Assembly: GCA_015493505.1 (NCBI GenBank)
Contig: WGDA01000103.1
Span: forward strand, 1 to 50,942
Direction of reading: 5' to 3'
Source of the DNA: Pseudomonadota bacterium
Lineage (GTDB): Bacteria > Desulfobacterota > S145-22
Length of the DNA: 50,942 nt
Part shown: positions 8,610 through 47,442 of the stretch, piece after piece
Position numbering within the stretch: the stretch's first letter is position 1
How the letters are laid out: each line of letters opens with the position of its first letter
The notes under the pieces: generated by a model
What the model was told of the DNA's origin: nothing
The model's input: the letters and a program-made list of their open reading frames with translations, nothing else
Databases searched by the model: none
Position numbers and translations under genes: made by a program

Positions 8610-8655
8610 AACTTCATCAATCTGCAATCACTCAAACCTTATAAAGGAGGATAAC

Positions 8656-9930
8656 GTGAAAGTTACCATATCAGCCATTCGTTCCATGGAAATTCTTGAT
8701 TCCCGCGGGAATCCTACCGTTCGCGTGTTCGTGGAGCTCAGTGACGGAACCACGGCGGTGTCATCCGTGCCATCCGGCGCAAGCACCGGCGAGAACGAGG
8801 CCCTCGAGCTCCGTGACGGGGATCCCAAACGTTACGGGGGGAAAGGCGTCCTCAAGGCGGTCGCCAACGTGAACGAAAAGCTGGGACCGGCCCTTATCGG
8901 GATGGACGCCACCCAGCAGGCCCTGATTGACCAGCGGATGCTCGAGCTGGACGGCACTCAGAACAAATCGAACCTTGGCGCTAACGCCATCCTCGGAATC
9001 TCCATGGCGGTCGCGCGGGCGGCGGCGGCATCCGCGAACGTTCCCCTCTACCAGTACCTGGGCGGAGCGGGGGCCAGGCGGCTGCCGGTTCCCTGCATGA
9101 ACATCCTCAACGGTGGAGAACACGCGGACAACAACGTGGATTTCCAGGAATTCATGGCGGTGCCGCTGGGCGCCCCTTCTTTCCGGGAAGGGCTGCGTTA
9201 CGTGGCGGAAACGTTTCACGTCCTCAAGGGTATCCTGAAAGACCGGGGACTCTCGACAGGCGTGGGGGACGAAGGGGGCTTCGCGCCCAACCTCGACAGT
9301 AACGAAGACGCCATCGAGACCATCATCCAGGCGATAGAAAAGGCGGGATACCGCCCGGGCATCGACATCGCCATCGCCCTGGACAGCGCCGCCACATCAT
9401 TCTCGAGCGATGGCAAGGCACCCTACGACCTGAAGTGGTCCGGTGCCGGAACCAAGTCAAGCGAAGACCTGATCGCACTGGCCGAGGAATGGGTCTCCAG
9501 ATATCCCATCGTCCTCTGGGAGGATCCCCTCGCGGAAGAGGACTGGGAGGGATTCAGGAAATTCACCGACAAGTTAGGCGATAAAATCGAGGTGGTGGGC
9601 GATGACATCTTCGTGACCAACACCCGCTACATCAGCCGGGGCATCGAGGAGGGTACGGCCAATTCTTCCCTCATCAAGCTGAACCAGATCGGCACGGTAA
9701 CGGAAACAATCGAGGCGGTGCGGATGTGCCGTGACGCGGGCTGGCGTTACTTCATTTCACACCGCTCGGGCGAAACGGAAGACCCCTTTCTGGCGGACTT
9801 CGCCGTGGCCATGGATGGGGGACATCTCAAGTCCGGTTCCGCCAGCCGCAGTGAGCGCATCGCAAAATACAACCGGCTTCTGGAAATCGAACAGGAGCTC
9901 GGCAAATCCGCGCTTTATTACTGGAAGTAA
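8656..9930 (+). CDS. eno: Enolase (phosphopyruvate hydratase)
   Basis: A 424-residue glycolytic enzyme that converts 2-phosphoglycerate to phosphoenolpyruvate with two Mg2+. Motifs include [26 protein letters not shown] (mobile loop), [22 protein letters not shown], metal ligands in [19 protein letters not shown] and GDDIFVTN, the catalytic Lys in LIKLNQIGT, and [10 protein letters not shown] with [16 protein letters not shown] chose GTG 8656 because homology starts there and AAAGGAGGATAAC lies just before it. The upstream in-frame ATG at 8572 falls in the promoter region. Enolase is a classic fluoride-inhibited enzyme, and the next element downstream is a fluoride riboswitch. Confidence 0.97.
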
Positions 9931-9983
9931 AGGGGAGGTCAAATATACGCCTGACGCGTGGCTGAAAATTTCACGAAAATACA

Positions 9984-10077
9984 GGTGATGAGGCTCACGT
10001 TTAACCGCTGATTAAAGCTGATAGCCTCTGCGGTGAAATCCCCGGGAAGAGGGGGTTCGGACGTGGAGGCTTTTTTT
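9984..10077 (+). promoter_or_regulatory. Fluoride riboswitch (crcB motif) with terminator platform, upstream of the MutS-like pair
   Basis: The RNA begins GGUGAUGAGGCUCAC and continues through UUUAACC to AGCUGAUAGCCUCU, matching the fluoride aptamer layout. P1 is GAGGCU (9990-9995) with AGCCUC (10023-10028). The pseudoknot is GUG (9985-9987) with CAC (9996-9998). P2 is GCU (10007-10009) with AGC (10016-10018), followed by the conserved UGAU. The 3' P1 strand is also the 5' arm of the terminator at 10023-10071, so aptamer and terminator exclude each other. This predicts read-through when fluoride is bound. The P2 stem is short, which lowers certainty slightly. Confidence 0.85.
10023..10077 (+). 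terminator. Riboswitch-controlled intrinsic terminator between eno and the MutS-like genes
   Basis: The outer stem pairs AGCCUCUGCG (10023-10032) with CGUGGAGGCU (10062-10071) over 10 bp, including two G-U pairs. An inner stem pairs AAUCCCC (10037-10043) with GGGGGUU (10051-10057). Seven T residues (10071-10077) follow. It may also be the conditional end of the enolase transcript. Confidence 0.88.
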
Positions 10078-10156
10078 CGCGGCAAAGGGGCTATTGCAAG
10101 GAAGAAGGCAAGTGGTAGGGGTGAGCGGCCGCTCGCCCGTACAGGAAAAGGAAGGT

Positions 10157-11683
10157 ATGGCGTTTCAAAGCATTCTGTTTAACACACTCAGGGATGTCAA
10201 AGGCGTGGACCGGCAGGCGCCGTGTTTCACCGACCTGAATCTGGACCAGGTGATTGAGGCCATCACGACTCCCTACCGGGACGATGTCCTGACCTCCTAT
10301 TTCTACATCCCTCTTCGCGACTTGGAGACCCTCCATTACCGGCAGGAGGTCATGCGTGACCTGGAGAATGATTCCCTGATGAAGGCAATCAAGGGATTCG
10401 CCGACGGGATGGAACGGGTGCGCAGATACCTGGCCATGGCGGAAAAGCTCGAGTACGACGCCCACAAAAAAGGGTGGTTCCTGGAGGCCGCCCTCCTCTA
10501 CTGTGAAACCCTGTCCTCTCAGGCCCGGCTCTTCTCAACCCTGAACCTGACATCCCGCGGGCTGTCATCCTTTCGCGACTATGTCACGGAATACGTCCGA
10601 TCCGAGGACTTCCTGCGCCTCTTAGAGGACGCGAAAGAGACCAAAAAGGGCCTGTCCGAGCTGACTTACTGCGTCATCGTCCAGAGCGGCAAGTTCAAGG
10701 TCAAGCGGTATGAAGGAGAGAGTGATTATAGCATCGAGGTGGAAAAGACCTTCGAGAAATTCAAACAGGGCACGGGAAAGGATTACACGGTCAAGCTGCC
10801 GGAGCGAATGGGGCTCAACCACATCGAGGCAAAGATCCTTGAATTTGTGACCAAGCTTTTTCCAGAACCCTTTGTCGCCCTGGACCGGTTTTACGAGATT
10901 CACCGGCACTTCCCGGACAGCGTGATTCAAACCTTCGGCCGGGAGATCCGGTTCTACATCGCCTATCTGGACTTTATCGCGGATTTTAAGCGTCAGGGGT
11001 TGCCTTTCTGCCTCCCGAAGGTGACCCTCACGAGCAAAGAGGATTTCGCGCGGGATAGCTTTGACCTGGCGCTGGCCCACGCTCTCCGGCACACGGACGC
11101 GACCATCGTTACCAACGATTTTTCCCTGAAAGACCCGGAGCGCATTATTGTCGTCACCGGTCCCAATCAGGGGGGGAAAACCACCTTTGCCCGGATGTTC
11201 GGACAACTGCATTATCTGGCCAGCCTGGGCTGCCCCGTGCCCGGTCGACAGGCGCGCCTTTTTCTGCCGGATCAGATCCTGACCCATTTCGAGCGGGAGG
11301 AGGATATCCGTAACCTGCGTGGTAAATTCGAGGATGACCTGTTCCGGATGTACGACATCCTCCAGGTGGCGACTCCGGATAGCCTGGTCGTGGTCAATGA
11401 AATTTTCGCCTCCACGGCACTGAAGGACGCCCTGTACCTGAGCCGGAAGATTCTTGAGCATCTGATGGCCCTGGATGTCTTGTGCGCATGGGTCACGTTC
11501 ATCGACGAACTCTCTTCCCTGAGTGAAAAGACCGTCAGCATGGTTGCCACCGTGGTTCCGGAAGACCCCACACGGCGCACCTTCAAGGTCGTCAGAAAAA
11601 GGGCCGACGGCCTGGCCTATGCCCTCTCGCTGGCCAAAAAACACAGCCTGACCTATCAGGACATCAAGGAGCGGGTCTCATGA
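10157..11683 (+). CDS. MutS-like ATPase A (fluoride-riboswitch operon)
   Basis: A 508-residue protein with a helical core (~1-300) and a C-terminal MutS-type ABC ATPase domain. Walker A is GPNQGGKTT at 335-343, unlike the canonical MutS GPNMxGKST. The Walker B end reads VVVNEIF, with N414-E415 where MutS has Asp-Glu. There is no N-terminal mismatch-binding domain (no Phe-x-Glu) and no Smr nuclease domain, so classical mismatch repair is unlikely. I chose ATG 10157 over the TTG at 10094 because the upstream residues look like leader, with an AGGA-type ribosome site before the ATG. It overlaps ATPase B by 4 bp. MutS-like genes are a known fluoride-riboswitch neighbour; the function is undetermined. 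Confidence 0.85.
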   Translation: MAFQSILFNTLRDVKGVDRQAPCFTDLNLDQVIEAITTPYRDDVLTSYFYIPLRDLETLHYRQEVMRDLENDSLMKAIKGFADGMERVRRYLAMAEKLEYDAHKKGWFLEAALLYCETLSSQARLFSTLNLTSRGLSSFRDYVTEYVRSEDFLRLLEDAKETKKGLSELTYCVIVQSGKFKVKRYEGESDYSIEVEKTFEKFKQGTGKDYTVKLPERMGLNHIEAKILEFVTKLFPEPFVALDRFYEIHRHFPDSVIQTFGREIRFYIAYLDFIADFKRQGLPFCLPKVTLTSKEDFARDSFDLALAHALRHTDATIVTNDFSLKDPERIIVVTGPNQGGKTTFARMFGQLHYLASLGCPVPGRQARLFLPDQILTHFEREEDIRNLRGKFEDDLFRMYDILQVATPDSLVVVNEIFASTALKDALYLSRKILEHLMALDVLCAWVTFIDELSSLSEKTVSMVATVVPEDPTRRTFKVVRKRADGLAYALSLAKKHSLTYQDIKERVS

Positions 11684-13242
11684 TGAAGGTTCACCTCATG
11701 TTTGCCGACCGGGATTTCAACCCGGAAGAGGCTCTGCCTTTCAACGCGAACGACCTGATTCAAGACCTTGAGCTAACCCCCATCCTCGCCGCCATGGCTG
11801 ATGAGGATGAATTCCTTCTAAAAATCGCGCGTCAGGCCCTGCTGGCAAGCCTGACGGACCTCGACCGCATCCGTTACCGGCAGGAGATTCTCTCGGACTG
11901 CATGGCACACCCGGAGGTGGTGAAACAGCTTTACCAGGTCCCCATGGAATTTCTGAAGAGGAAGCGCAGCCAGTGGCTGTGGATTTCGACCCGGCACGCC
12001 AACCCCAGCTCCATTCTCAGCAGCGCGGTGCACATGCTGGAGGCGTCCCTCGACCTGCTCAAAACCCTGAGGCAGATCGCGGACCAGCACCGGTCCAGCT
12101 TCAGGTCACTGGGGTTTCAAAACCTGTTTAAGACATTTCAAAAAGAGCTCGACGATGATTACCTCGCCCTGGTCGCCCGGCATATCAAACAGCTTCGCTT
12201 CCCGGACGGCGCCCTAATCAGCGCGCGCCTGGGCCCCGGAAACGAGGGGACAGAGTACCTTCTCCGCAAACCCAACAACACGGACAAACCCTGGCTGAAG
12301 CGTGTCTTCGCGAAAAAATCACCGGTGTATTCCTTTTCACTACATCCACGCGACGAACACGGCGCGCAGGCGCTTGGAGAGCTGAGAGACCGGGGGATCG
12401 CGCGCGCCGCCAGTGCCGTCGCCCGGGCCGCGGATCATATCGAAAGTTTTTTCAACGCCCTTCGGACGGAGCTGGCTTTTTATCTCGGGTGCCTGAACCT
12501 GAAAGACCGGCTCTCCGGACTGGACTCCCCTGTTTCCATCCCCGAGCCGGCGTCCGCCGAGGAAAGGCGATTTTCATGCCGCGAACTGTATGACGCCTCA
12601 CTGACGCTGACGATGAATCAGCGTGTCGTCGCGAACGACATCTCGGCCGATGGGAAAGAGCTCATCATCATTACCGGACCCAACCAGGGGGGGAAAACCA
12701 CCTTCCTCCGGAGCGTTGGACAGGCACACCTGATGGCCCAGTGCGGAATGTTTGTCCCCGCCCGCGCCTTCACCGCCAATCTGTTCACGGCACTCTTTAC
12801 CCACTTCAAGCGGGAGGAAGACAAAACCATGGAAAGCGGGAAATTCGGGGAGGAGCTGAAACGCATGAGCGCCATCGTGGATCACATCACGCCTCACACC
12901 CTCATCCTCCTCAACGAGTCCTTTGCCGCCACAAATGAGCGGGAAGGGTCCGAGGTCGCCCGACAGATTGTCACCGCCCTGACGGAAAAACGGGTCAAGG
13001 TCTTCTTCGTCACGCACCTCTACGAGTTCGCCAACAGCTTTTACCAAAAAGGTTCCGAAAACGCCTGCTTCCTGCGCGCGGAACGGCTCCCGGACCAGCG
13101 ACGCACCTTCAAAATCAAGGAAGGGAAACCGCTTGAAACAAGCTTCGGCGTGGACCTGTACCGCAAGGTCTTTAAAAACGAACCGGAAGGCATGGACGCG
13201 TCCACGCGACAGCACATGGAAAAGGGGAAAACAGCCTTATGA
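11680..13242 (+). CDS. MutS-like ATPase B (fluoride-riboswitch operon)
   Basis: A 520-residue paralogue of the preceding protein, with the same layout of helical core and C-terminal MutS-type ATPase. Walker A is GPNQGGKTT from residue 333, and the Walker B region LILLNESFAAT has N412-E413. The downstream VKVFFVTHLYEFAN resembles the H-loop region of ABC-type ATPases, with a Thr-His pair. ATPase A has no His at the matching place (LCAWVTFIDEL), so a heterodimer with unequal active sites is plausible. Translation is coupled to gene A (ATGATGA overlap, AAGGAG upstream) and its end overlaps the next gene by 4 bp. Confidence 0.85.
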   Translation: MMKVHLMFADRDFNPEEALPFNANDLIQDLELTPILAAMADEDEFLLKIARQALLASLTDLDRIRYRQEILSDCMAHPEVVKQLYQVPMEFLKRKRSQWLWISTRHANPSSILSSAVHMLEASLDLLKTLRQIADQHRSSFRSLGFQNLFKTFQKELDDDYLALVARHIKQLRFPDGALISARLGPGNEGTEYLLRKPNNTDKPWLKRVFAKKSPVYSFSLHPRDEHGAQALGELRDRGIARAASAVARAADHIESFFNALRTELAFYLGCLNLKDRLSGLDSPVSIPEPASAEERRFSCRELYDASLTLTMNQRVVANDISADGKELIIITGPNQGGKTTFLRSVGQAHLMAQCGMFVPARAFTANLFTALFTHFKREEDKTMESGKFGEELKRMSAIVDHITPHTLILLNESFAATNEREGSEVARQIVTALTEKRVKVFFVTHLYEFANSFYQKGSENACFLRAERLPDQRRTFKIKEGKPLETSFGVDLYRKVFKNEPEGMDASTRQHMEKGKTAL

Positions 13243-37815: not shown

Positions 37816-39597
37816 TTACAGCCCCTGAGAGACCTCTTTGAGAAGGGCGTTCACAGAATCGCTCATGCCTTCCACCTCTTCGAGGCGTTTCGCGAGCTCC
37901 TCTTCGCGTTTCTTGACCTCTTCGGTGTTCACCTTCTTCATATCCATTGCCCGTTTCAGCGCCTCTTCGATCGAGGCGGCCGTGGCGTCGATCTTCTGGT
38001 TCAGGTCGTACCGGAACTGCATGAAACTCTCCCGGATCCGCATGGTAAAATCCGCCTTGACCCGCCCACAGTTGGCGTCAATACGGTCGGGAAGCTTCTT
38101 CAGGATTTTCTTCAGGGCGTAATTCCGGGAAAATCCCTTGGGCAGCACGGAACGGGAGAAGAAATCGATTGCGCCCTCCAGGTCGAAAAACTTGGGGCGG
38201 TCCCCCATCAGATAGTAGAACCGGCTGTCCTCCTTGATGGCTTCCTCTCCGCTCACCCGTTCCAGCTGGATTCCGAAAAGCTTGGCGGACGCCTCCAGGA
38301 GGCTGTCGATAATCTCGTTCGCCTTGTCCGAAAATTTCCTGGAAATCCTGGAATACTCCTTGTTCAGTTCCTCTTCCATCCGGGTAATCCAGTCATCAAA
38401 GGCCCGGACAATCCCATCGTTCAGGGTTTTCTCCAGGGTTTCCACGTACTCCTTGATATCCAGGTCCTTCTTCACCTCGGCCGTCTTCTTCAACTCCTCC
38501 AGCAGCGCGGGAAGCTGCCGGTCCTTCAGCTCGCGAACCTCGTAATCCACCCGGTCGATCAGGCGCTTCGCCTCCGCCTCGAAGAAGTACCCGTTGTCCC
38601 GCTTCTCCGCCTGGATGTTTTCCAACTGCTTCTTGAACAACGCGATCTTTTCTTCCAGGTCCTTCAGCGGGGTGGCGATCGCCTTCAATTCGATTTTCAG
38701 TGAGACAATCTCATCTCCCAGCAGCTTCTGGGTCCCCTTGAGGATGGACGTGAGGAAAACCTTCCCCTTCTCCTTCATCAGAAAATCATTCAAAGTCTTT
38801 TCGAATTCCGGCAGGAAGCTCTCCCTGAGGAGCGCCTCATCCCCCTTTGTCTTCCCCAGGAGTGCCTTCTTGGCGGAAAGGGGATAAATGACCACGGAAT
38901 CCCGACCCAGGGCCTCCTCGATCACCTGCTTGGAAAAGGCCATGGACTCCTCGCGTTCCGCCTCGTCGAGATAATCCACCTTATTCTGGATGAAAAAGAT
39001 TTTTTCGACAAACTTTCGAATATCCCTCAGGAACGCCAGCTCCGCCTCGCTGATGGGGGGGTCCCCCGCCAGCAGGAAGAGGGCCGCGTCCACGTGGGGC
39101 AAAAAGTCATACGTCATCTCCGTATTGTTGGAGAAAATGGACCCCACCCCGGGCGTGTCGATGATATGAACCCCCTGTTTCAGGTAATCGGAGGGGTAGG
39201 AGATCTCGACCCGGTCGACCTGTTTCACGTTCTTCGGATTCCCCTTTTCCGTCACGTACTCCGCCAGACCGTCACGGGAAATCTCCCTGCGCGTGCCATC
39301 CTTGAAAATGACCTCTATTTTCTGCTGGTCCCCATACTTGAGAACCGTCACGATGGAGGTTAGCGGAACGATGGCCGTGGGAAGCAGGGTATCCCCGATC
39401 AGGCTGTTGATAAAGGTGCTCTTTCCCCGTTTGAACTGTCCCAACACCACCAGGTAGAAACGGTTGTCCACAAGTTTCTGCCGGATCTGCCCCAGCGAAG
39501 ACGACAACGTCGGGTTGTGGGCGTCCGCGGCATAATCCACGATACGATCCAACACTTCACTCGCCTTTCGGTGATAAGCGCTATACACGTCTAACAT
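37816..39597 (-). CDS. Dynamin-like GTPase (fluoride-riboswitch controlled)
   Basis: A 593-residue dynamin-family protein. The G domain has G1 GQFKRGKST (53-61), a G2 Thr in PLTSIVT (~78-84), G3 DTPGVGS (147-153) and G4 NKVD (205-208). Residues ~290-590 are mostly long amphipathic, Glu/Lys-rich helices, as in bacterial dynamin stalks. I see no clear transmembrane paddle. Bacterial dynamins remodel or protect membranes. I chose ATG 39597 since GGAGGG precedes it; the TTG at 39630 lies in the leader. It is a single-gene unit with its own promoter, fluoride aptamer and terminator. The link between fluoride and a dynamin is, to my knowledge, not an established one. Confidence 0.9.
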   Translation of the reverse strand: MLDVYSAYHRKASEVLDRIVDYAADAHNPTLSSSLGQIRQKLVDNRFYLVVLGQFKRGKSTFINSLIGDTLLPTAIVPLTSIVTVLKYGDQQKIEVIFKDGTRREISRDGLAEYVTEKGNPKNVKQVDRVEISYPSDYLKQGVHIIDTPGVGSIFSNNTEMTYDFLPHVDAALFLLAGDPPISEAELAFLRDIRKFVEKIFFIQNKVDYLDEAEREESMAFSKQVIEEALGRDSVVIYPLSAKKALLGKTKGDEALLRESFLPEFEKTLNDFLMKEKGKVFLTSILKGTQKLLGDEIVSLKIELKAIATPLKDLEEKIALFKKQLENIQAEKRDNGYFFEAEAKRLIDRVDYEVRELKDRQLPALLEELKKTAEVKKDLDIKEYVETLEKTLNDGIVRAFDDWITRMEEELNKEYSRISRKFSDKANEIIDSLLEASAKLFGIQLERVSGEEAIKEDSRFYYLMGDRPKFFDLEGAIDFFSRSVLPKGFSRNYALKKILKKLPDRIDANCGRVKADFTMRIRESFMQFRYDLNQKIDATAASIEEALKRAMDMKKVNTEEVKKREEELAKRLEEVEGMSDSVNALLKEVSQGL

Positions 39598-39643
39598 GAC
39601 TTTCCCTCCTGACAGTCCTATTTTTTTCAAGGCGAGGTTTTAG

Positions 39644-39673
39644 AAAAAAACCCCACCCGGCGGTTGGATGGGG
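39644..39673 (-). terminator. Riboswitch terminator before the dynamin-like gene
   Basis: On the minus strand CCCCAUCC (39673-39666) pairs with GGGUGGGG (39658-39651) across an AACCGCC loop, followed by seven U residues (plus-strand A run 39644-39650). The gene's ribosome site and ATG lie 47 bases further on. Confidence 0.92.
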
Positions 39674-39753
39674 CAGGATTCACAGACCCCTACCCCTCAA
39701 AGGGTAGAAGTCATCAGCCCACAGGGGCATTCTGGCAGACTTCATTGCCTGTG
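39644..39753 (-). promoter_or_regulatory. Fluoride riboswitch (crcB motif) with antiterminator and terminator, upstream of the dynamin-like gene
   Basis: On the minus strand: GGCAAUGAAGUCUGCC, then AGAAUGCCC CUGU GGGCUGAUGACUUCU. Pseudoknot GGCA (39749-39746) with UGCC (39737-39734). P1 GAAGUC (39743-39738) with GACUUC (39712-39707). P2 GCCC (39728-39725) with GGGC (39720-39717), followed by the conserved UGAUG. Three competing hairpins follow. GACUUCUACCC (39712-39702) can pair with GGGUAGGGGUC. GGGGUAGG (39696-39689) can pair with CCUGCCCC (39677-39670). The terminator at 39651-39673 uses CCCC of the latter. Fluoride-stabilised P1 frees GGGGUAGG to break the terminator, so the switch should be ON with fluoride. 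Confidence 0.93.
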
Positions 39754-39758
39754 GCTTT

Positions 39759-39786
39759 AATATAAATAAAACTTTTAAAAAGTCAA
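39759..39786 (-). promoter_or_regulatory. Promoter of the riboswitch-dynamin transcript
   Basis: On the minus strand TTGACT (39781-39786), 16 bp, TATATT (39759-39764). Predicted start near 39752, exactly where the aptamer sequence begins. This agreement supports both calls. Confidence 0.75.
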
Positions 39787-39850: not shown

Positions 39851-42800
39851 TCAGACGCTCCGATTTGCGACCGGCAACCGCCCATTCAGCCAGCGGTAAA
39901 GCACAGCCATGCGCGCCGTCCACGCCAGGTCCTTGGAGCTAACGCCTTCCTTCAGGGTTACGGAACGGGCGATGAGGGTCTCCGCGTCGAGTTCGGCGCG
40001 CGCGTCCGCGTCTTCGTAAACCAGGACATCTCCCGATTCCCGAAGCGTGGCGCGTTTCCCGTCATACAGGCCCTCCATGACGCCGGGTTCCGGAAAATAC
40101 ACGCCCCTGCCAGAGGCTTCGAGGCTTTCCCGGCTCAGGTGAACCTTGGCCTTGTCGCGATAGGGAGCCCCGCTGGAAGGGCAGAAGGTCTCACAGTTGC
40201 CGCAGGCGTTACAGAAATCGGCGATGTTGACGACCTGGTAGGGCTGGGTAATGGCCTCCCACCCCACAGTCTCCGCCGACACGCCGTTTCCGTCCCGGAC
40301 CGCGCGTTGAAGGGGAAACCGGACCGGCGAAACGCTGAGGGCCACATTGGCCCGATTGGGGCAGACGGTCACACAGATATTGCAGAGCAGATCGCACTGG
40401 AGGCAGCGGGCCGCTTCACGCCGGGCGTCTTCTTCAGGCAGCGTCCCCACATAAGGCGTGAAATCCAGGCGTTCCCCAGGTTCCCGCGTGATCGGCTCCG
40501 GCCCAAACGCGCGGCGCGCCCGCCGGATGAAAAGCTCACGAAGGTCAGGGGACCGGTCATCTTCCGGCGTGAGGGCTTCGGGAAACGAAAGCCCGGACTT
40601 CCTCATGATGGCCTCCGCCACGCGCCTGCCGTCCCCAATGGCCTCCACGATGGAGGAGGCGCCACGCACCGCGTCTCCGCCCGCGTAAACCCCTTCCGCC
40701 TGGGTCTCCAGCGTCTCGGGGTTCACCTCCAGGGCCCCGTCAGGCAGGAAATCAAGTCGGATCCGCTGACCGATGGCGGTAATCACCGTATCGACCTCCA
40801 GCGTGAATTCCGCCCCTTCCACCCGCTCGGGCCGACGGCGTCCGCTGGCGTCCTTCTCCCCCAGCCTCATCCGGTCACACTGGAGGGCGGTAACCCGCCC
40901 TTCCCGCGTCAACACCCGAATCGGCTGCGTCAGCTCCCGCAGGGAAATCCCTTCCTCCAGGGCCTCCCTCAGCTCATCGGGATCGCAGGGCATCTCCCGG
41001 CGCGTGCGTCGATAGACGATGGTCACCTCGCCCGACTCACGCAAAAACCGTTTCGCGGCACGGGCCACGTCGATGGCCGCGTTCCCGCCACCGACCACCA
41101 CGACCCGTCGCCCCAGCGCCGGCTTCTCACCGCGGCGAACCGCGCTGAGAAAGGACAACTGATCCAGTACCCCGTCGGCCTCTTCGCCGGGAATCCCCAG
41201 CGTCAGGCTCTCCTGGGCGCCCACGGCAATTATGACGAAATCCTTCGTCCGCCGCAATTCCTCGAAGGTTTCCCTGCCGACGGCGGATTCGGTATGAAGC
41301 CGGACACCGAGAGACAGAATGGCATGAATATCCTTTTCCAGGCTCGCTTTGTCGAGGCGAAAGGCGGGAATGGCGTCGGCAACCATGCCGCCCGGAAAAG
41401 CCTTGCTCTCATAAATATCCACCTCGAACCCCGCCAGCGCCAGGAAATAGGCGCAGGACAATCCCGTCGGGCCGGCCCCGATCACCCCCACCCGGCGGCC
41501 GTTGGCGGGCAACGCCGCGGGGAGGTCCCGTTCATCCCGCCTCTGGGCGACAAACCGCTTGATCTCGCGAATCAGCACCGGGGCGTCGTAGTTCACCCGG
41601 GTACACTGAAACTGGCACAGATGAGTGCAGACCATGCCCTGAACGGCGGGGAAGGGGTTGGTCGCCAGGATGGTACGGAAGGCCTTTTCATCCTCCCCCC
41701 GGGCGGTGAAATCGAGATACCGCGGGATGTCCTGATCCGCCGCGCAGGCATCCACGCAGGGCGCCGCGGCGCAATCGAAAAGAGGCAGGGGGCGTGAGGT
41801 CTTGACGCCCCTGTACGGGAAACGCTGCTTGGCGTAACGCCCACTCTCCACCACACGTTTCGCGTAGGCCTTGAGGACGCGCAGGGCGGCTTCTCGCGGG
41901 TCGTCAGTGTCCGTCCGGGAGAGAGGCAGGGCCTCCAGGGAGGGAATCTCCCGCGCGGACATCTCGTTTCCGAGAATCTCCAGATACTGCGACAACCGAC
42001 CATACCCCCCGGGTTTCAGGATGTCGGAAGACATGGTCACGGGCCGAAGCCCACACGCCAGGGTGTCGACGATATTGAAGCAGTCCACCCCGCCCGCGAA
42101 TGAGATGTCCAGGTGTCCGTCAAAGGCCTCCTGAAGCCGGGCGGCGAGGTTGATGCTGATGGGATGCAGGGCCCGGCCGCTCATGTAGACGGTGGGTTCC
42201 CCGTCCGGGAGGTTCTGCTCGATATTCTCTGTCTCCAGGGTATTGGTCAGCTTCAGGCTGAACCGGACGCCGCGCGCCTCGGCCGACTTCAGGAGAGAGG
42301 CGATGAGATCGAGGGCGTCCTCGTATTTGAGATCGTGTTCGAACGCCGCGTCCGGCACTCGGGTGGCGTACCCCAGCCGGTCATTCAGAATCTCCCGCAG
42401 GCGATCGGGGCCCAGGAGGGTCGGGTTGAACTTGATGGTCGTGTGCAGCCCCCGCTCTTCGATGAAGTACCGGCCAATCTTCTCCACCTCGTCGGGGGGA
42501 CATCCGTGCATGGTGGAAACAGTCAGGTTGTCCGAGAGGCGGGTGGGAATCTCGAGCTGACGCACCCGTGGATAGATGGGCGCCACACGGGCGATTTTCT
42601 CTTCCAGCTCGGCGGTGCAGTCCGCCATGCGGTCCAGAAACCGTTGCACCTTCGGGCTCCGAATCCCCTCCAGGTTGTAACCGGCGCTCATGTTGAAGAT
42701 GAAGCCGGGCTCCGCGCTCTCCCACTGAAATTTGTCCCGGAGGATGTAGAGGAGGATGAAGGCGTTGAGATACTGATCAAAGGATTGGTCGAGACGGAGC

Positions 42801-43144
42801 TCCTGCGACCACTCGCAGTTGTATCCTTCGTCCGTCATGTCGATGCAGGGCTTGGTCACCTCCAGCTCGTCGAGCACCTGGATGGTCTTCAGCTCGATGT
42901 AACGGGCACCGCACAGGTAGGCGGAGATGATATTCTGCGCCAGTTGCGTGTGGGGCCCCGCCGCCACGCCGAGAGGGGTCTCCAGCAATTTTCCGAAACG
43001 GCGCATGCGGAAGGGGTCCGTGGCCTTTGGGGTAAAAAAGAGCTCCTCGGGGATTCCGAAGATTTCACGCCGCTCTTCCAGGTCCCTCAAAACCCACTGG
43101 AGCAGTGTTTCAATATCGGCACACACAAATTCATCAGGTCTCAT
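39851..43144 (-). CDS. ygfK: YgfK: putative Fe-S/flavin oxidoreductase of the selenium-dependent purine catabolic cluster
   Basis: A 1097-residue fusion. Residues ~1-440 resemble a dihydroorotate-dehydrogenase-like TIM barrel (GVAAGPHTQLAQN, STMHGCPPDEVEKIG). Cys clusters at ~455-510 (CVDACAADQD, CTHLCQFQC) lead into a GltD-like part with an FAD site (GVIGAGPTGLSCAYF, ~550) and a pyridine-nucleotide site (VVVVGGGNAAIDVARAA, ~680). The C-terminal ~170 residues hold [4Fe-4S] motifs (CDLLCNICVTVCPNR, CNACGNCETFCP). It is annotated in E. coli as a putative selenate reductase subunit but is genetically linked to xanthine/urate catabolism. Likely moves electrons for the Xdh enzyme. ATG 43144 preferred over an upstream GTG. 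Confidence 0.93.
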   Translation of the reverse strand: MRPDEFVCADIETLLQWVLRDLEERREIFGIPEELFFTPKATDPFRMRRFGKLLETPLGVAAGPHTQLAQNIISAYLCGARYIELKTIQVLDELEVTKPCIDMTDEGYNCEWSQELRLDQSFDQYLNAFILLYILRDKFQWESAEPGFIFNMSAGYNLEGIRSPKVQRFLDRMADCTAELEEKIARVAPIYPRVRQLEIPTRLSDNLTVSTMHGCPPDEVEKIGRYFIEERGLHTTIKFNPTLLGPDRLREILNDRLGYATRVPDAAFEHDLKYEDALDLIASLLKSAEARGVRFSLKLTNTLETENIEQNLPDGEPTVYMSGRALHPISINLAARLQEAFDGHLDISFAGGVDCFNIVDTLACGLRPVTMSSDILKPGGYGRLSQYLEILGNEMSAREIPSLEALPLSRTDTDDPREAALRVLKAYAKRVVESGRYAKQRFPYRGVKTSRPLPLFDCAAAPCVDACAADQDIPRYLDFTARGEDEKAFRTILATNPFPAVQGMVCTHLCQFQCTRVNYDAPVLIREIKRFVAQRRDERDLPAALPANGRRVGVIGAGPTGLSCAYFLALAGFEVDIYESKAFPGGMVADAIPAFRLDKASLEKDIHAILSLGVRLHTESAVGRETFEELRRTKDFVIIAVGAQESLTLGIPGEEADGVLDQLSFLSAVRRGEKPALGRRVVVVGGGNAAIDVARAAKRFLRESGEVTIVYRRTRREMPCDPDELREALEEGISLRELTQPIRVLTREGRVTALQCDRMRLGEKDASGRRRPERVEGAEFTLEVDTVITAIGQRIRLDFLPDGALEVNPETLETQAEGVYAGGDAVRGASSIVEAIGDGRRVAEAIMRKSGLSFPEALTPEDDRSPDLRELFIRRARRAFGPEPITREPGERLDFTPYVGTLPEEDARREAARCLQCDLLCNICVTVCPNRANVALSVSPVRFPLQRAVRDGNGVSAETVGWEAITQPYQVVNIADFCNACGNCETFCPSSGAPYRDKAKVHLSRESLEASGRGVYFPEPGVMEGLYDGKRATLRESGDVLVYEDADARAELDAETLIARSVTLKEGVSSKDLAWTARMAVLYRWLNGRLPVANRSV

Positions 43145-43164
43145 GGTCACTCTCGCTGTTTTTG

Positions 43165-43209
43165 GTTTGTTTCGTTTGTCTGGTTCATTCCGTTTATCTC
43201 GTTTTTCTC
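43165..43209. repeat. Five degenerate 9-bp tandem repeats in the ygfK leader
   Basis: Units GTTTGTTTC, GTTTGTCTG, GTTCATTCC, GTTTATCTC and GTTTTTCTC run back to back. On the minus strand they form a purine/A-rich leader (GAGAAAAAC-type units) just upstream of the ygfK start. The function is unknown. A 12-base piece recurs before ygeY. Confidence 0.65.
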
Positions 43210-43225
43210 AGTTTTAAGTGGTTAA

Positions 43226-43276
43226 GTTATTAAGTGTTAAGATTTACTTAAAACCTAAAACTTAAAACTTAATAAC
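43226..43276. repeat. AT-rich inverted repeat with 16-bp arms between ssnA and ygfK
   Basis: GTTATTAAGTGTTAAG (43226-43241) is the reverse complement of CTTAAAACTTAATAAC (43261-43276) except at one base, with a 19-base spacer. It is not followed by a clear T run. The base composition is far more AT-rich than the flanking genes. Confidence 0.7.
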
Positions 43277-43290
43277 TCCTCATGCCTTTC

Positions 43291-43374
43291 ACCCCAGTGA
43301 AATCCGCCCCTGGTAGGATTTTCCGAACCTACAGGGTAAACTTCGGCTGACCGCTTTGCGGTATTTCACGGGGT
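43291..43374. repeat. 84-bp structured palindromic element (REP/MITE-like) downstream of ssnA
   Basis: The ends ACCCCAGTGAAATCCGC (43291-43307) and GCGGTATTTCACGGGGT (43358-43374) are near-perfect inverted copies. Inside, CCCTGGTAGG (43308-43317) pairs with CCTACAGGG (43328-43336) with one bulge, and CCGCTTTGCGG (43351-43361) forms an alternative small hairpin. This looks like a dispersed chromosomal palindrome rather than a simple terminator. No second copy was seen in this window. Confidence 0.6.
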
Positions 43375-43380
43375 AAACCT

Positions 43381-44670
43381 TTAACCGTTCACCCTTAACT
43401 TATCCCACAACCGCCGGGCCTGCTGCCGGGCAAAGGCAAGAACCTCCCCCTCGTCCACCGTGGTCACCCGGCCCTCTTCCACGATGACCCGTCCCTGGGC
43501 GATGACCGTCGCCACATGACCGGACTCCAGGCCATAGACGAAATGCCCGGGGAAGTTTTCGGGTGTCACGTCCGTGGGGGAATCGTAGTCAAGGATAACG
43601 AGGTTGTTGTCCCCATCGCCCTGTGCCCCCATGCCGTGCACAAACGTGTGAACGGCACGGAAACGCCGGTAGAGCTGGTCGGGGGAAATCCCCTCGGTCC
43701 CCTGACCAATCAGGTAAGCGGCCTTGGCGCTTCGCAGCATGTCGCTGTGCATGCCGTCCGTCCCGAGCATGACACGCTCGCCCAACTCCCGATAATTGGC
43801 ACCCCCCACGTTGTTGTTCAGGTTGCTCTCCGTGTTCTGAACCACCCAGGCGGGAGACTGCCGGACAAGGGCCTTTTCCTCCTCGCTCAGGTGAATGCAG
43901 TGGGCAAGAATGGTGTGGGGGCTGTCCAGGGCGCCCGCATCGGAAAGGCGTTGCACCACCCGTTTCCCGTAGGTTTCCAGGCAATGTTCCTGATCGGCCG
44001 CGTCCTCCGCCACGTGGATATGGATCCCCGTGCCGTGTTTGGCCGCCAGGTCCACCGCCGCCTTCAGCAGGCCGTCATCCACGGTAAACGAGGCGTGCAG
44101 CCCCACGTGCCCCTTCCGTCCGGAGGAGAGATAGGCGTCCGTCTCCGCCAGGCCCGCCTTTCTGGGGCCATCCCCGTCCCGGCAGGAAATCTCATAGCAG
44201 AGAAGGTGCGCCAGCCCCACCTTTTCAAAGGATCGGGCGATGGTTTCAAGAGCCCCGTCAATGGCGAAGGGGGAGGCATGGTGATCAATGCAAAAGGTCA
44301 CGCCATGCTTGGCCATGTGAACGGCCGCCGTTAGGGCGCTGGCCTCGATCATGTCCCGATCGAGACGCTTGTCCAGCCGCCACCAGATGTATTCGAGGAC
44401 CTCGACGAAATTCGTGGGGATTTTGGGGGGGGCGGGCATCCCCCGCGCGAGGGTGGAATAGATATGATGGTGCCCGCAGGCGAAGGATTTCGTCACGAGC
44501 CGCCCCCGACAGTCGATCACCCGGTCGCCGGGCTGCAGGCTGTCCGCGCCGGGAAGGGTGTCAGGGAAGGTCAGTTCCCCGGCAGGCCCCGGCGTGACGG
44601 CCAGGATTCCTTCCCGGATTTCCAATGTTTCGGCGTCGAGATACCGGGCGTCTTTCAGATAAAGGGTCAT
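43381..44670 (-). CDS. ssnA: Putative aminohydrolase SsnA
   Basis: A 429-residue amidohydrolase-superfamily enzyme. Metal and catalytic residues are visible in FACGHHHIYS, HIHVAE, LAHCIHLSEEE and GTDGMHSDM, and VVQNTESNLNNNVG is characteristic. SsnA resembles guanine/8-oxoguanine deaminases and is part of the YgfK-Xdh-YgeW purine catabolic set. I chose ATG 44670, which overlaps the 2Fe-2S gene stop (ATGA) and follows AAAGGAGAC. Substrate in this organism is inferred, not shown. Downstream lies the palindrome-rich gap before ygfK. Confidence 0.93.
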   Translation of the reverse strand: MTLYLKDARYLDAETLEIREGILAVTPGPAGELTFPDTLPGADSLQPGDRVIDCRGRLVTKSFACGHHHIYSTLARGMPAPPKIPTNFVEVLEYIWWRLDKRLDRDMIEASALTAAVHMAKHGVTFCIDHHASPFAIDGALETIARSFEKVGLAHLLCYEISCRDGDGPRKAGLAETDAYLSSGRKGHVGLHASFTVDDGLLKAAVDLAAKHGTGIHIHVAEDAADQEHCLETYGKRVVQRLSDAGALDSPHTILAHCIHLSEEEKALVRQSPAWVVQNTESNLNNNVGGANYRELGERVMLGTDGMHSDMLRSAKAAYLIGQGTEGISPDQLYRRFRAVHTFVHGMGAQGDGDNNLVILDYDSPTDVTPENFPGHFVYGLESGHVATVIAQGRVIVEEGRVTTVDEGEVLAFARQQARRLWDKLRVNG

Positions 44671-45176
44671 ACGGTGTCTCCTTTCGACAGGGTTCGCGCG
44701 ACAAACCCCGTGTCTCGCATCTTCCGCGCCGCCAGTTCCACGGCGTCCACGATCTGCTGATAGCCGGTGCATCGGCAAAGGTTCCCGCTCAGGGCCTTCC
44801 GGATGGCCTCACGGGTCGGGTTCAGGTTTTTCGACAGGAGGGCGTAAGACGTCAGAATCATTCCAGGTGTGCAGAACCCGCACTGGATCGCGCCCGCCTC
44901 CACGAAGGCCTCCTGGATGGGGTGCAGGCGGCCGTCTTCCGCCTCCACGCCTTCGATGGTCAGGATTTCCCGCCCGAGAACCGCCTCGACTTTCAGCCGG
45001 CACGACCGTCGGGGCGCGCCGTCCACGATGACCGTGCAGGCGCCACACACGCCTTCCTCGCATCCGTTCTTGGTGCCGGTCAGGCCGAGTCTTGCCCGCA
45101 GGTAGCGAAGCAGAGACATCTCTTCATCCGCCTTGGCAACCTGGTAGCGCCGCCTGTTTATGATAATCTCGCCCAC
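44667..45176 (-). CDS. 2Fe-2S subunit of a xanthine-dehydrogenase-family hydroxylase
   Basis: A 169-residue protein with two [2Fe-2S] sites: plant-type CEEGVCGACTVIVDG with a following Cys, and CGFCTPGM with CRCTGY. It carries electrons from the molybdenum centre. It starts with GTG at 45174-45176, one base after the stop of the Mo subunit, with GGAGGA 8 bases upstream; the longer open frame overlaps the Mo gene. In E. coli XdhD this domain is fused to the Mo subunit; here it is separate. Confidence 0.92.
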   Translation of the reverse strand: MGEIIINRRRYQVAKADEEMSLLRYLRARLGLTGTKNGCEEGVCGACTVIVDGAPRRSCRLKVEAVLGREILTIEGVEAEDGRLHPIQEAFVEAGAIQCGFCTPGMILTSYALLSKNLNPTREAIRKALSGNLCRCTGYQQIVDAVELAARKMRDTGFVARTLSKGDTV

Positions 45177-45177
45177 G

Positions 45178-47442
45178 TCACGCGTCCTCCTTTTCAATCC
45201 GGATGGGCAGGCGGTCCATCCGCCTTCCCGTGGCGTGATACACCGCGTTGGCGATGGCCGGCGCGATAATCTCCAGGGCGGGCTCACCGATCCCCTTGGC
45301 GCCGGAGGGCGAGGTGGGATCGGGGTTTTCGATAATGAGGGCTGTCATCTCCGGCAGGTCCATCGCCTTGGGAATCCTGTACTTCCGAAAGCTGGCGTTT
45401 CTGATAACGCCCCCCTCGGTCTCCACCTTCTCCATCAGCGCCATCCCCATCCCCTGGGCGATGCCGCCGTAGATCTGTCCCAGGAGCATGGGCCGGTTCA
45501 CCGCCTTCCCGATATCGTGGGCGGCCACCACGTTGAGGAGCCGGACGCGGCCCGTTTTCAGGTTCACCGACACCTCGACCGCCTGGCAACTGTACACATA
45601 GGTGAAATAGGCATCCCCCTGCCCCGTCTCCTCGTCCCACGTGACGGCCGGAGCCCTGAACCCGGCAAAGCTGTAGGGATAGACCCGCTTCAGGAAGAGT
45701 TGGCGCATGGCCTCATCCCACGAGAGCCTCTGGTCATCGGCCTCCCCAAGGATCGCGTCATCCTGAAAGCGGACCTTTTCAGGCGCGCAACCCAGCGTGT
45801 CCGCCAGGGCCTCCGCGATTATCTTTTTCAGCTTTTTCGCCGCCAGAACCACCGCGCCGCACCCCATCAGGGTGCCCCGGCTGGCGACCGTGGGGCCTCC
45901 GTCCGGGATGGAGGACGTGGAAGGCTGGCGATAGGTAATCCTCCCCCGGTCCACCCCGAGGTGTTCCTGGAGGGTCAGGATCATGGCCGATTCGGCCCCC
46001 TGCCCGTTTTCGTGGATGCCCACCTCCAGCAGGATGGAACCGTCGAACTGGCAGTTGATCACGGCGGAGCAGAAGTCCATCCCTTCCGCCCCCAGGCTGG
46101 CGCCCCGGTAGCAGATGGCCAGGCCGACACCGTAGAGATTTTCAGGGTCTCCCTTTCCGCGGGAACTCCGGGCGCGTTTCTCCTCGTAGCCGATCTTTTC
46201 AGCCACCGTGTCCATGACCTCCCGGATGCTCACGGTGTGATTGTTCAAAAGCTGCCCCGTGATGGTTTCCGCTCCCTGGGTCACCATGTTGATACGCCGG
46301 ATCTCCAGGGGCGACAGGCCCGTTTTCTCCGCCGCCATGTCCATCAGTTGCTCCACGGCAAAATTGACCTGCGGAGACCCGAAGCCCCTGAAGGCCCCGG
46401 TAAAGACGTTGTTGGTCGCCACGCCATACACATCGGCGTGGACGTGTTCCACCCGGTACGGACCACAGCACTGAACGGCCGACCGCCAGGTGACCCACGG
46501 GGTCGTGGAACAGTAGGCTCCGGCATCGGCAATGATGCGTGCCTCAACCGCCTGGACACGGCCATCCCGATTCAGTCCCATTCGGTAATGCAGGACATAG
46601 GGATGCCGCTTGTAGCTCTCCCGCATGGACCACTGGCGGGCATAGGTCAGCTTCACGGGACGGTCGCACAGGCGGGCCGCCAGCGCCGCCCGGGCGCAGA
46701 CAACGGCGGCGGTGTCGTCCTTTCCGCCGAACCCGCCCCCCACTGGGACGGTGCGAATCTCCACCCGCGCAAGGGGCTCTCCCAAAATGGCCGCCACGAA
46801 CCGGCGGGTGGTAAAGGGGTGCTGCATGCTGCCATAGACTTCCATGACGCCGTCCGGGCGGGGAACGCAGACGGCGGACTCGGGTTCCAGGTAGGCGTGC
46901 TCAACGAACGAGGTCCGAAAGGTATGGTCGATCACGATGTCACACGCCGCCAACGCGCTCCGGGCGTCCCCCCGGCGAATCTTGTGATGGTTCACGATAT
47001 TGTTTTTTGTTCCCGGACGAATCACGGGGGCATCCGGGCGAAAGGCTTCTTCCGGGTCGATCAGGGGAGGCAGAGGATCCGCCGAAATCCTGACCTGTCG
47101 GGCCGCCTCGAGGGCCGCCTCCCGCGTCTCGGCCACGACGAGCGCCACCACGTCTCCGTGTGACAGAATCCTGTCCTCGGCCAGCATGGGGTAATCTCGC
47201 TCTATCTGCCCGAACCGGACGGCCCCTGGAATATCCGCCGCGGTGATGACCTTCAGGACCCCGTCCTGGCGCGCGGCTTCCCGCGTGTCCACGGACAGGT
47301 TTTCCGCGTGCACGAAATCCGAATAGACGGGAACACAATGGGCCATTCGGGGAAAGGTATGGTCATCCGCGTACCGGGCCCGGCCCGTGACCTTGATCAC
47401 CGCGTCGTTCCGGTACGCTGATTCCCTTTTACCTGTCGTCAT
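45178..47442 (-). CDS. xdhD: Molybdenum hydroxylase large subunit (XdhD-type, split form)
   Basis: A 754-residue Mo-cofactor subunit of the xanthine dehydrogenase family. It has the N-terminal a/b hammerhead (KVTGRARYADD), the cofactor loop VGGGFGGKDD (~233), AFRGFGSPQ with the family Arg, and the catalytic Glu in KGIGEPA (near residue 720). Within the YgfK cluster such enzymes hydroxylate purines, probably with a labile selenium. It lacks a fused 2Fe-2S domain and no FAD-binding XdhB/YgfM gene lies in the window. The ribosome site before ATG 47442 (AAGGGG) is modest. Confidence 0.9.
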   Translation of the reverse strand: MTTGKRESAYRNDAVIKVTGRARYADDHTFPRMAHCVPVYSDFVHAENLSVDTREAARQDGVLKVITAADIPGAVRFGQIERDYPMLAEDRILSHGDVVALVVAETREAALEAARQVRISADPLPPLIDPEEAFRPDAPVIRPGTKNNIVNHHKIRRGDARSALAACDIVIDHTFRTSFVEHAYLEPESAVCVPRPDGVMEVYGSMQHPFTTRRFVAAILGEPLARVEIRTVPVGGGFGGKDDTAAVVCARAALAARLCDRPVKLTYARQWSMRESYKRHPYVLHYRMGLNRDGRVQAVEARIIADAGAYCSTTPWVTWRSAVQCCGPYRVEHVHADVYGVATNNVFTGAFRGFGSPQVNFAVEQLMDMAAEKTGLSPLEIRRINMVTQGAETITGQLLNNHTVSIREVMDTVAEKIGYEEKRARSSRGKGDPENLYGVGLAICYRGASLGAEGMDFCSAVINCQFDGSILLEVGIHENGQGAESAMILTLQEHLGVDRGRITYRQPSTSSIPDGGPTVASRGTLMGCGAVVLAAKKLKKIIAEALADTLGCAPEKVRFQDDAILGEADDQRLSWDEAMRQLFLKRVYPYSFAGFRAPAVTWDEETGQGDAYFTYVYSCQAVEVSVNLKTGRVRLLNVVAAHDIGKAVNRPMLLGQIYGGIAQGMGMALMEKVETEGGVIRNASFRKYRIPKAMDLPEMTALIIENPDPTSPSGAKGIGEPALEIIAPAIANAVYHATGRRMDRLPIRIEKEDA

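Follow-up and report, generated by a model that had tools for sequence, protein, structure and literature searches.

A fluoride riboswitch with a predicted antitermination switch precedes a dynamin-like GTPase gene, a pairing that recurs across a bacterial phylum

Introduction

Fluoride (crcB) riboswitches, which constitute the Rfam family RF01734, reveal the genes that a cell wants as the concentration of fluoride rises. Fluoride enters the cell as HF and acidifies the interior, and over-production of enolase is an accepted answer to the inhibition of that enzyme by fluoride (PMC11139923). Genes for enolase, MutS-like proteins, CrcB and Na+/H+ antiporters are found behind this riboswitch family, often beside the dynamin gene described below; most of these regulon members are enzymes or transporters whose connection to fluoride is established or has been suggested, whereas the dynamin has none as yet.

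Bacterial dynamins mostly have no known trigger. The two solved members that most closely resemble the protein considered here are the bacterial dynamin-like protein BDLP from Nostoc (PDB entries 2j68 and 2j69) and, as the next-best match, mycobacterial IniA (6j72). To our knowledge, BDLP is not under fluoride control, and we know of no riboswitch for IniA. IniA is a dynamin-like protein made under stress, as the protein described here probably is, but its inducers are anti-tuberculosis drugs; it mediates membrane fission (PMC6715688). Another bacterial dynamin, DynA, has a role in membrane surveillance (PMC8844932).

Here we analyze a stretch of 50,942 nucleotides, referred to as the window, in which a fluoride riboswitch precedes a dynamin-like gene. 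The leader resembles other members of RF01734 in its pseudoknot, P1, inner stem, UGAUG and UAC elements, and in its terminator-based control with a predicted ON response. It differs from them in its target, in that dynamins are absent from the fluoride-riboswitch gene lists of Weinberg 2010 (PMC2864571) and of a 2024 review (PMC11139923). It also differs in its design, because the family to which the window belongs adds an antiterminator and an anti-antiterminator, where other members have a terminator that overlaps P1 directly. No relevant paper joining the fluoride riboswitch or crcB with a dynamin was found in the searchable literature, although an earlier mention is possible. Thus, the riboswitch and the dynamin each belong to known families, and it is their regular pairing, as read from genome sequences, that appears to be new.

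Results

The aptamer

When the whole window was compared with all Rfam families using cmscan, the single match above threshold was RF01734, on the minus strand at 39758-39698 (full model, positions 1-64; 44.7 bits against a cut-off of 34; E 3.1e-9). Pairing, together with an alignment of 28 dynamin leaders, places the pseudoknot arms at 39749-39746 (GGCA) and 39737-39734 (UGCC), and the P1 arms at 39743-39738 (GAAGUC) and 39712-39707 (GACUUC), all on the minus strand. P1 encloses an inner stem, identified by pairing, between 39728-39725 (GCCC) and 39720-39717 (GGGC), which is followed by the UGAUG core at 39716-39712. A preliminary description of this DNA had assigned the leader to the fluoride motif from these same elements; each of its pairings proved to be where it had been drawn, and the covariance-model match bears out the assignment.

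In the 28 leaders, all cells (100%) of P1 and the pseudoknot are paired, and 18 of them are changed on both sides. None of 500 shuffles reached as high a value, and the pairing was lost when one partner was slid along the alignment. The pair types in the pseudoknot are GC/AU/UA and CG/UA/UG. The U directly after P1 (U39706), which forms the linchpin, is invariant (28/28), and in UGAUG the G is replaced by A in a few leaders.

The expression platform

Upstream of the aptamer lies a sigma-70-like promoter with 10 of 12 matches, namely TTGACT at 39786-39781 and TATATT at 39764-39759 on the minus strand, separated by 16 nucleotides; matches of this quality are no rarer in shuffled sequences, but TTGAC is invariant in 5/5 relatives. 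Downstream, three helices compete. The first is an anti-antiterminator, GACUUCUACCCU (39712-39701) with GGGGUAGGGGUC (39696-39685), a hairpin of 12 bp that consumes the entire 3' strand of P1 together with the next U; the exclusion between this hairpin and the aptamer is therefore complete. An equivalent of 9-12 bp is present in all 5 members of the family, with helices found in each sequence separately. The second is the antiterminator, GGGGUAGG (39696-39689) with CCUGCCCC (39677-39670), also identified by pairing in individual sequences. In two relatives (G004 and G002) it reads GGGGUAGA/UCUACCCC, a compensatory change, and its last pair is G-C in 3 family members and A-U in 2, i.e., a double change. 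The third is an intrinsic terminator, CCCCAUCC (39673-39666) with GGGUGGGG (39658-39651), ending in a U run at 39650-39644; a terminator scan selected GCCCCAUCC/GGGUGGGGU and the U run. All three helices are on the minus strand, and the mutually exclusive chain that they form is kept in 5/5 family members. Helices were sought per sequence, and a MAFFT alignment of the five sequences placed one leader one base off in the antiterminator.

The energetics of the platform were assessed by folding. Of 200 shuffles of its 71 nucleotides, 199 folded less well (z -3.2), and the free fold consists of the anti-antiterminator and the terminator (-35 kcal/mol). When the 3' strand of P1 and the next U are blocked, and the RNA extends through the 5' arm of the terminator but ends before the 3' arm, the antiterminator forms. 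With the same positions blocked, the complete platform still folds into the terminator (-25.1 kcal/mol), and the antiterminator fold (-24.3) is obtained only with UAC blocked. Once the terminator is complete, then, little energy separates the two states, and so an ON response should be kinetic, arising during transcription.

From this architecture we infer both the binding of fluoride and the direction of the switch. Without fluoride, the 3' strand of P1 would pair with GGGGUAGGGGUC, the terminator would form, and transcription would stop before the dynamin gene. With Mg-bound fluoride, the aptamer would instead retain the 3' strand of P1 and the following U; GGGGUAGG would then be free to capture CCUGCCCC, leaving the terminator without its 5' arm, and the dynamin would be made. 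The preliminary description had predicted the same outcome, ON with fluoride, and the architecture supports that direction. The promoter, antiterminator, terminator and U run that it listed were all located by scan or pairing, and the anti-antiterminator is likewise present, but its extent had to be corrected to the 12-bp hairpin that uses the whole 3' strand of P1.

A script predicted a terminator ahead of the start codon in 27 of 28 dynamin leaders; the automatic classifier of terminators mis-called two of the relatives (G005 and G002), for which helices found per sequence were used. In distant clades the 5' arm of the terminator is the 3' strand of P1 itself, a simple and direct design, to which the family of the window and some other groups have added the antiterminator stage. 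Both designs predict an ON response.

The controlled gene

A distance of 100 nt separates the end of the aptamer from the ATG of a minus-strand gene (37816-39597), which has a ribosome-binding site, AGGAGG, at 39605-39610 on the same strand. The gene encodes a protein of 593 residues of the BDLP/IniA class. Pfam reports Dynamin_N (PF00350, E 3.3e-26), among solved proteins the sequence is closest to Nostoc BDLP (2j68, E 5e-25) and then to mycobacterial IniA, and the GTPase motifs G1 (GQFKRGKS), G3 (DTPG) and G4 (NKVD) are intact. An AlphaFold model (pLDDT 73.9, pTM 0.61) was submitted to Foldseek, which returned BDLP (2j69, E 2e-21, TMq 0.76) and IniA as the best matches, with a fold of long helical neck and trunk; since the RMSD is large (6-13 A), this match is one of topology rather than of exact conformation. 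Identity to BDLP over the structural alignment is 19%. Pfam, PDB, Foldseek and motifs thus agree on a dynamin-family GTPase, as had been proposed at the outset.

The likely paddle region, residues 447-476, has pLDDT values below 50, and the protein is without a strong hydrophobic stretch; such stretches are clearer in distant homologues than in the window protein. A membrane function is inferred from homology. In one related locus (L017, genome G003) the dynamin reading frame is interrupted toward its end by a single in-frame stop.

Linkage of riboswitch and dynamin across the phylum

The linkage was surveyed in 395 genomes of the phylum, searches by order and by class having reached only the six genomes of the window's family. 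Within that family, the dynamin is found in 4 other members, and in each of them a fluoride riboswitch stands in front of it. Across the sample, a protein search gave 85 dynamin matches in 79 genomes, and RF01734 gave matches in 158 genomes. Joining the protein list with the RF01734 list, and adding cmscan of fetched loci, we found a fluoride riboswitch on the same strand within about 250 nt of 64 of the 85 dynamins, in 62 genomes from 25 families and in homologues with as little as 27% identity. Eight further dynamins have a riboswitch on the same strand ~0.6-3 kb upstream. Given few riboswitches and thousands of genes per genome, we estimate the chance expectation at well under 1%. Conversely, of 150 riboswitch matches listed, 47 sit directly before such a dynamin, and at the best 30 riboswitch loci, where some targets were assigned by eye, dynamins lead the list of targets (11, versus 5 Na+/H+ exchangers and 2 CrcB). 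The leader is therefore conserved both within the family and across the phylum; the preliminary description had regarded dynamins as non-standard members of fluoride regulons, and in this phylum they are among the commonest.

The linkage is clustered on a protein tree of 56 dynamins (3 changes, a value that none of 500 shuffles matched or undercut), a quick tree with long branches that was used for clustering only. Unlinked copies fall mostly in clades of their own, and one genome (G370) has both a linked and an unlinked paralogue. About a quarter of the homologues are without a nearby riboswitch, including the whole clades G254/G295/G370 copy 2/G108/G076 and G342/G324/G177/G380; the dynamin family thus also works without the riboswitch. 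In a second group, that of G395 (58 genomes), two dynamins were found, neither with a riboswitch directly in front; the one in G395 shares its strand with an enolase gene and a riboswitch ~8 kb upstream.

Taken together, these data make it very probable that a transcriptional fluoride riboswitch turns this dynamin gene on, and that, in this phylum, the dynamin regularly belongs to the fluoride regulon.

Neighboring genes and the wider fluoride regulon

In related genomes, the genes adjoining the dynamin are fluoride-linked. They encode enolase, a MutS-like pair, a universal stress protein, a CPA antiporter, CrcB and phosphoglycerate mutase (named by eye, with Pfam for a subset). Back-to-back fluoride riboswitches also occur, with the dynamin behind one of them and a different gene behind the other (CrcB in L028, an antiporter in L034; also L031, L032, L035, L036, L038 and L040), and a 4.2-Mb genome (G277, locus L108) has 11 fluoride riboswitch matches, several of them in one island.

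The genome of the window contains four fluoride riboswitches in all, including that of the dynamin. The second, on the plus strand of the window at 9975-10037, scores 32.5 bits, marginally below the curated threshold; it lies between an enolase gene (8641-9930) and two genes for MutS-domain-V ATPases on the plus strand (10133-13242), and an alternative partner for the 3' strand of its P1, AGCCTC (10023-10028), is available in GAGGCT (10066-10071), ahead of a T run. The third and fourth (loci L001/L006 and L003/L005, contig C153) precede a gene for a membrane subunit of a complex-I-like, formate-hydrogenlyase-type hydrogenase, and one for a prenyltransferase toroid protein of 289 residues. Proteins resembling the prenyltransferase alpha-alpha toroid are encoded repeatedly in such contexts, either downstream of a fluoride riboswitch or immediately following the dynamin (L052, L058, L109, L110, L005).

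CrcB is absent from this genome and from the other two genomes of its genus (G004 and G005), even though fluoride riboswitches occur in them, and is present in sister genera. The two CLC proteins of the window genome were considered as fluoride exporters and set aside; both carry a GREGP/GQEGP motif, which we take to be of the ordinary chloride type rather than the fluoride type, and the test is a weak one.

Discussion

Dozens of distantly related bacteria in the phylum share the pairing of riboswitch and dynamin, which suggests that they make the dynamin as part of their defense against fluoride. If dynamins are indeed among the commonest targets phylum-wide, membrane remodeling would be a part of fluoride defense that the published accounts examined do not mention. 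Bacterial dynamins would also gain a defined chemical inducer, making their function directly testable with fluoride.

As to what the protein does, we tentatively put membrane maintenance first, a reading whose chances we place a little short of even: the dynamin may reshape or seal the membrane as incoming HF lowers the internal pH. It is given this place because dynamins of the IniA and DynA type act on membranes under stress, and because HF acidifies the cell. A stronger claim, which we regard as unlikely though worth stating, is that the dynamin is a dedicated fluoride-resistance protein providing an envelope defense against HF that is separate from export; in the genus of the window, a regulon of the dynamin, the MutS-like pair, the prenyltransferase-fold protein and the hydrogenase would then work without the usual exporter.

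We consider it equally unlikely that the same switch serves to replace a poisoned enzyme, i.e., that more dynamin is made because its GTPase is inhibited by fluoride in the form of metal fluoride bound with GDP, in the manner of enolase and pyrophosphatase. Metal fluorides with GDP mimic the transition state of GTPases, the GTPase motifs of this protein are intact, and dynamin and enolase are repeatedly found in one cluster. However, such poisoning would affect many essential GTPases to the same degree, and none besides the dynamin turned up behind these riboswitches at the loci examined; nor is there any sign that the dynamin is needed when fluoride is absent.

Whichever of these functions applies, control of the dynamin itself is the reading that we favor. 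The genes rimP, nusA and infB lie downstream of the dynamin on the same strand, and the terminator scan gave no terminator-like site on that strand between the dynamin and rimP, so the riboswitch might mainly control rimP-nusA-infB by read-through, with the dynamin as a passenger. This is very improbable, in that related loci keep riboswitch and dynamin without adjoining rimP, nusA or infB. More generally, the related loci examined have neither these three genes nor the window's upstream oxidoreductase gene next to the dynamin, and it follows that the leader travels with the dynamin and not with the region. A chance or decayed leader that no longer senses fluoride is just as improbable, given that all core nucleotides are kept, the score is above the cut-off, aptamer and platform both show compensatory changes, and the arrangement is common to 64 of 85 homologues.

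Upstream of the leader, at 39851-47442 on the minus strand, the window also holds a cluster resembling a molybdenum hydroxylase pathway, whose members include a pyridine nucleotide-disulphide oxidoreductase of 1099 residues with iron-sulphur domains, an amidohydrolase-like protein and xanthine-dehydrogenase-like subunits.
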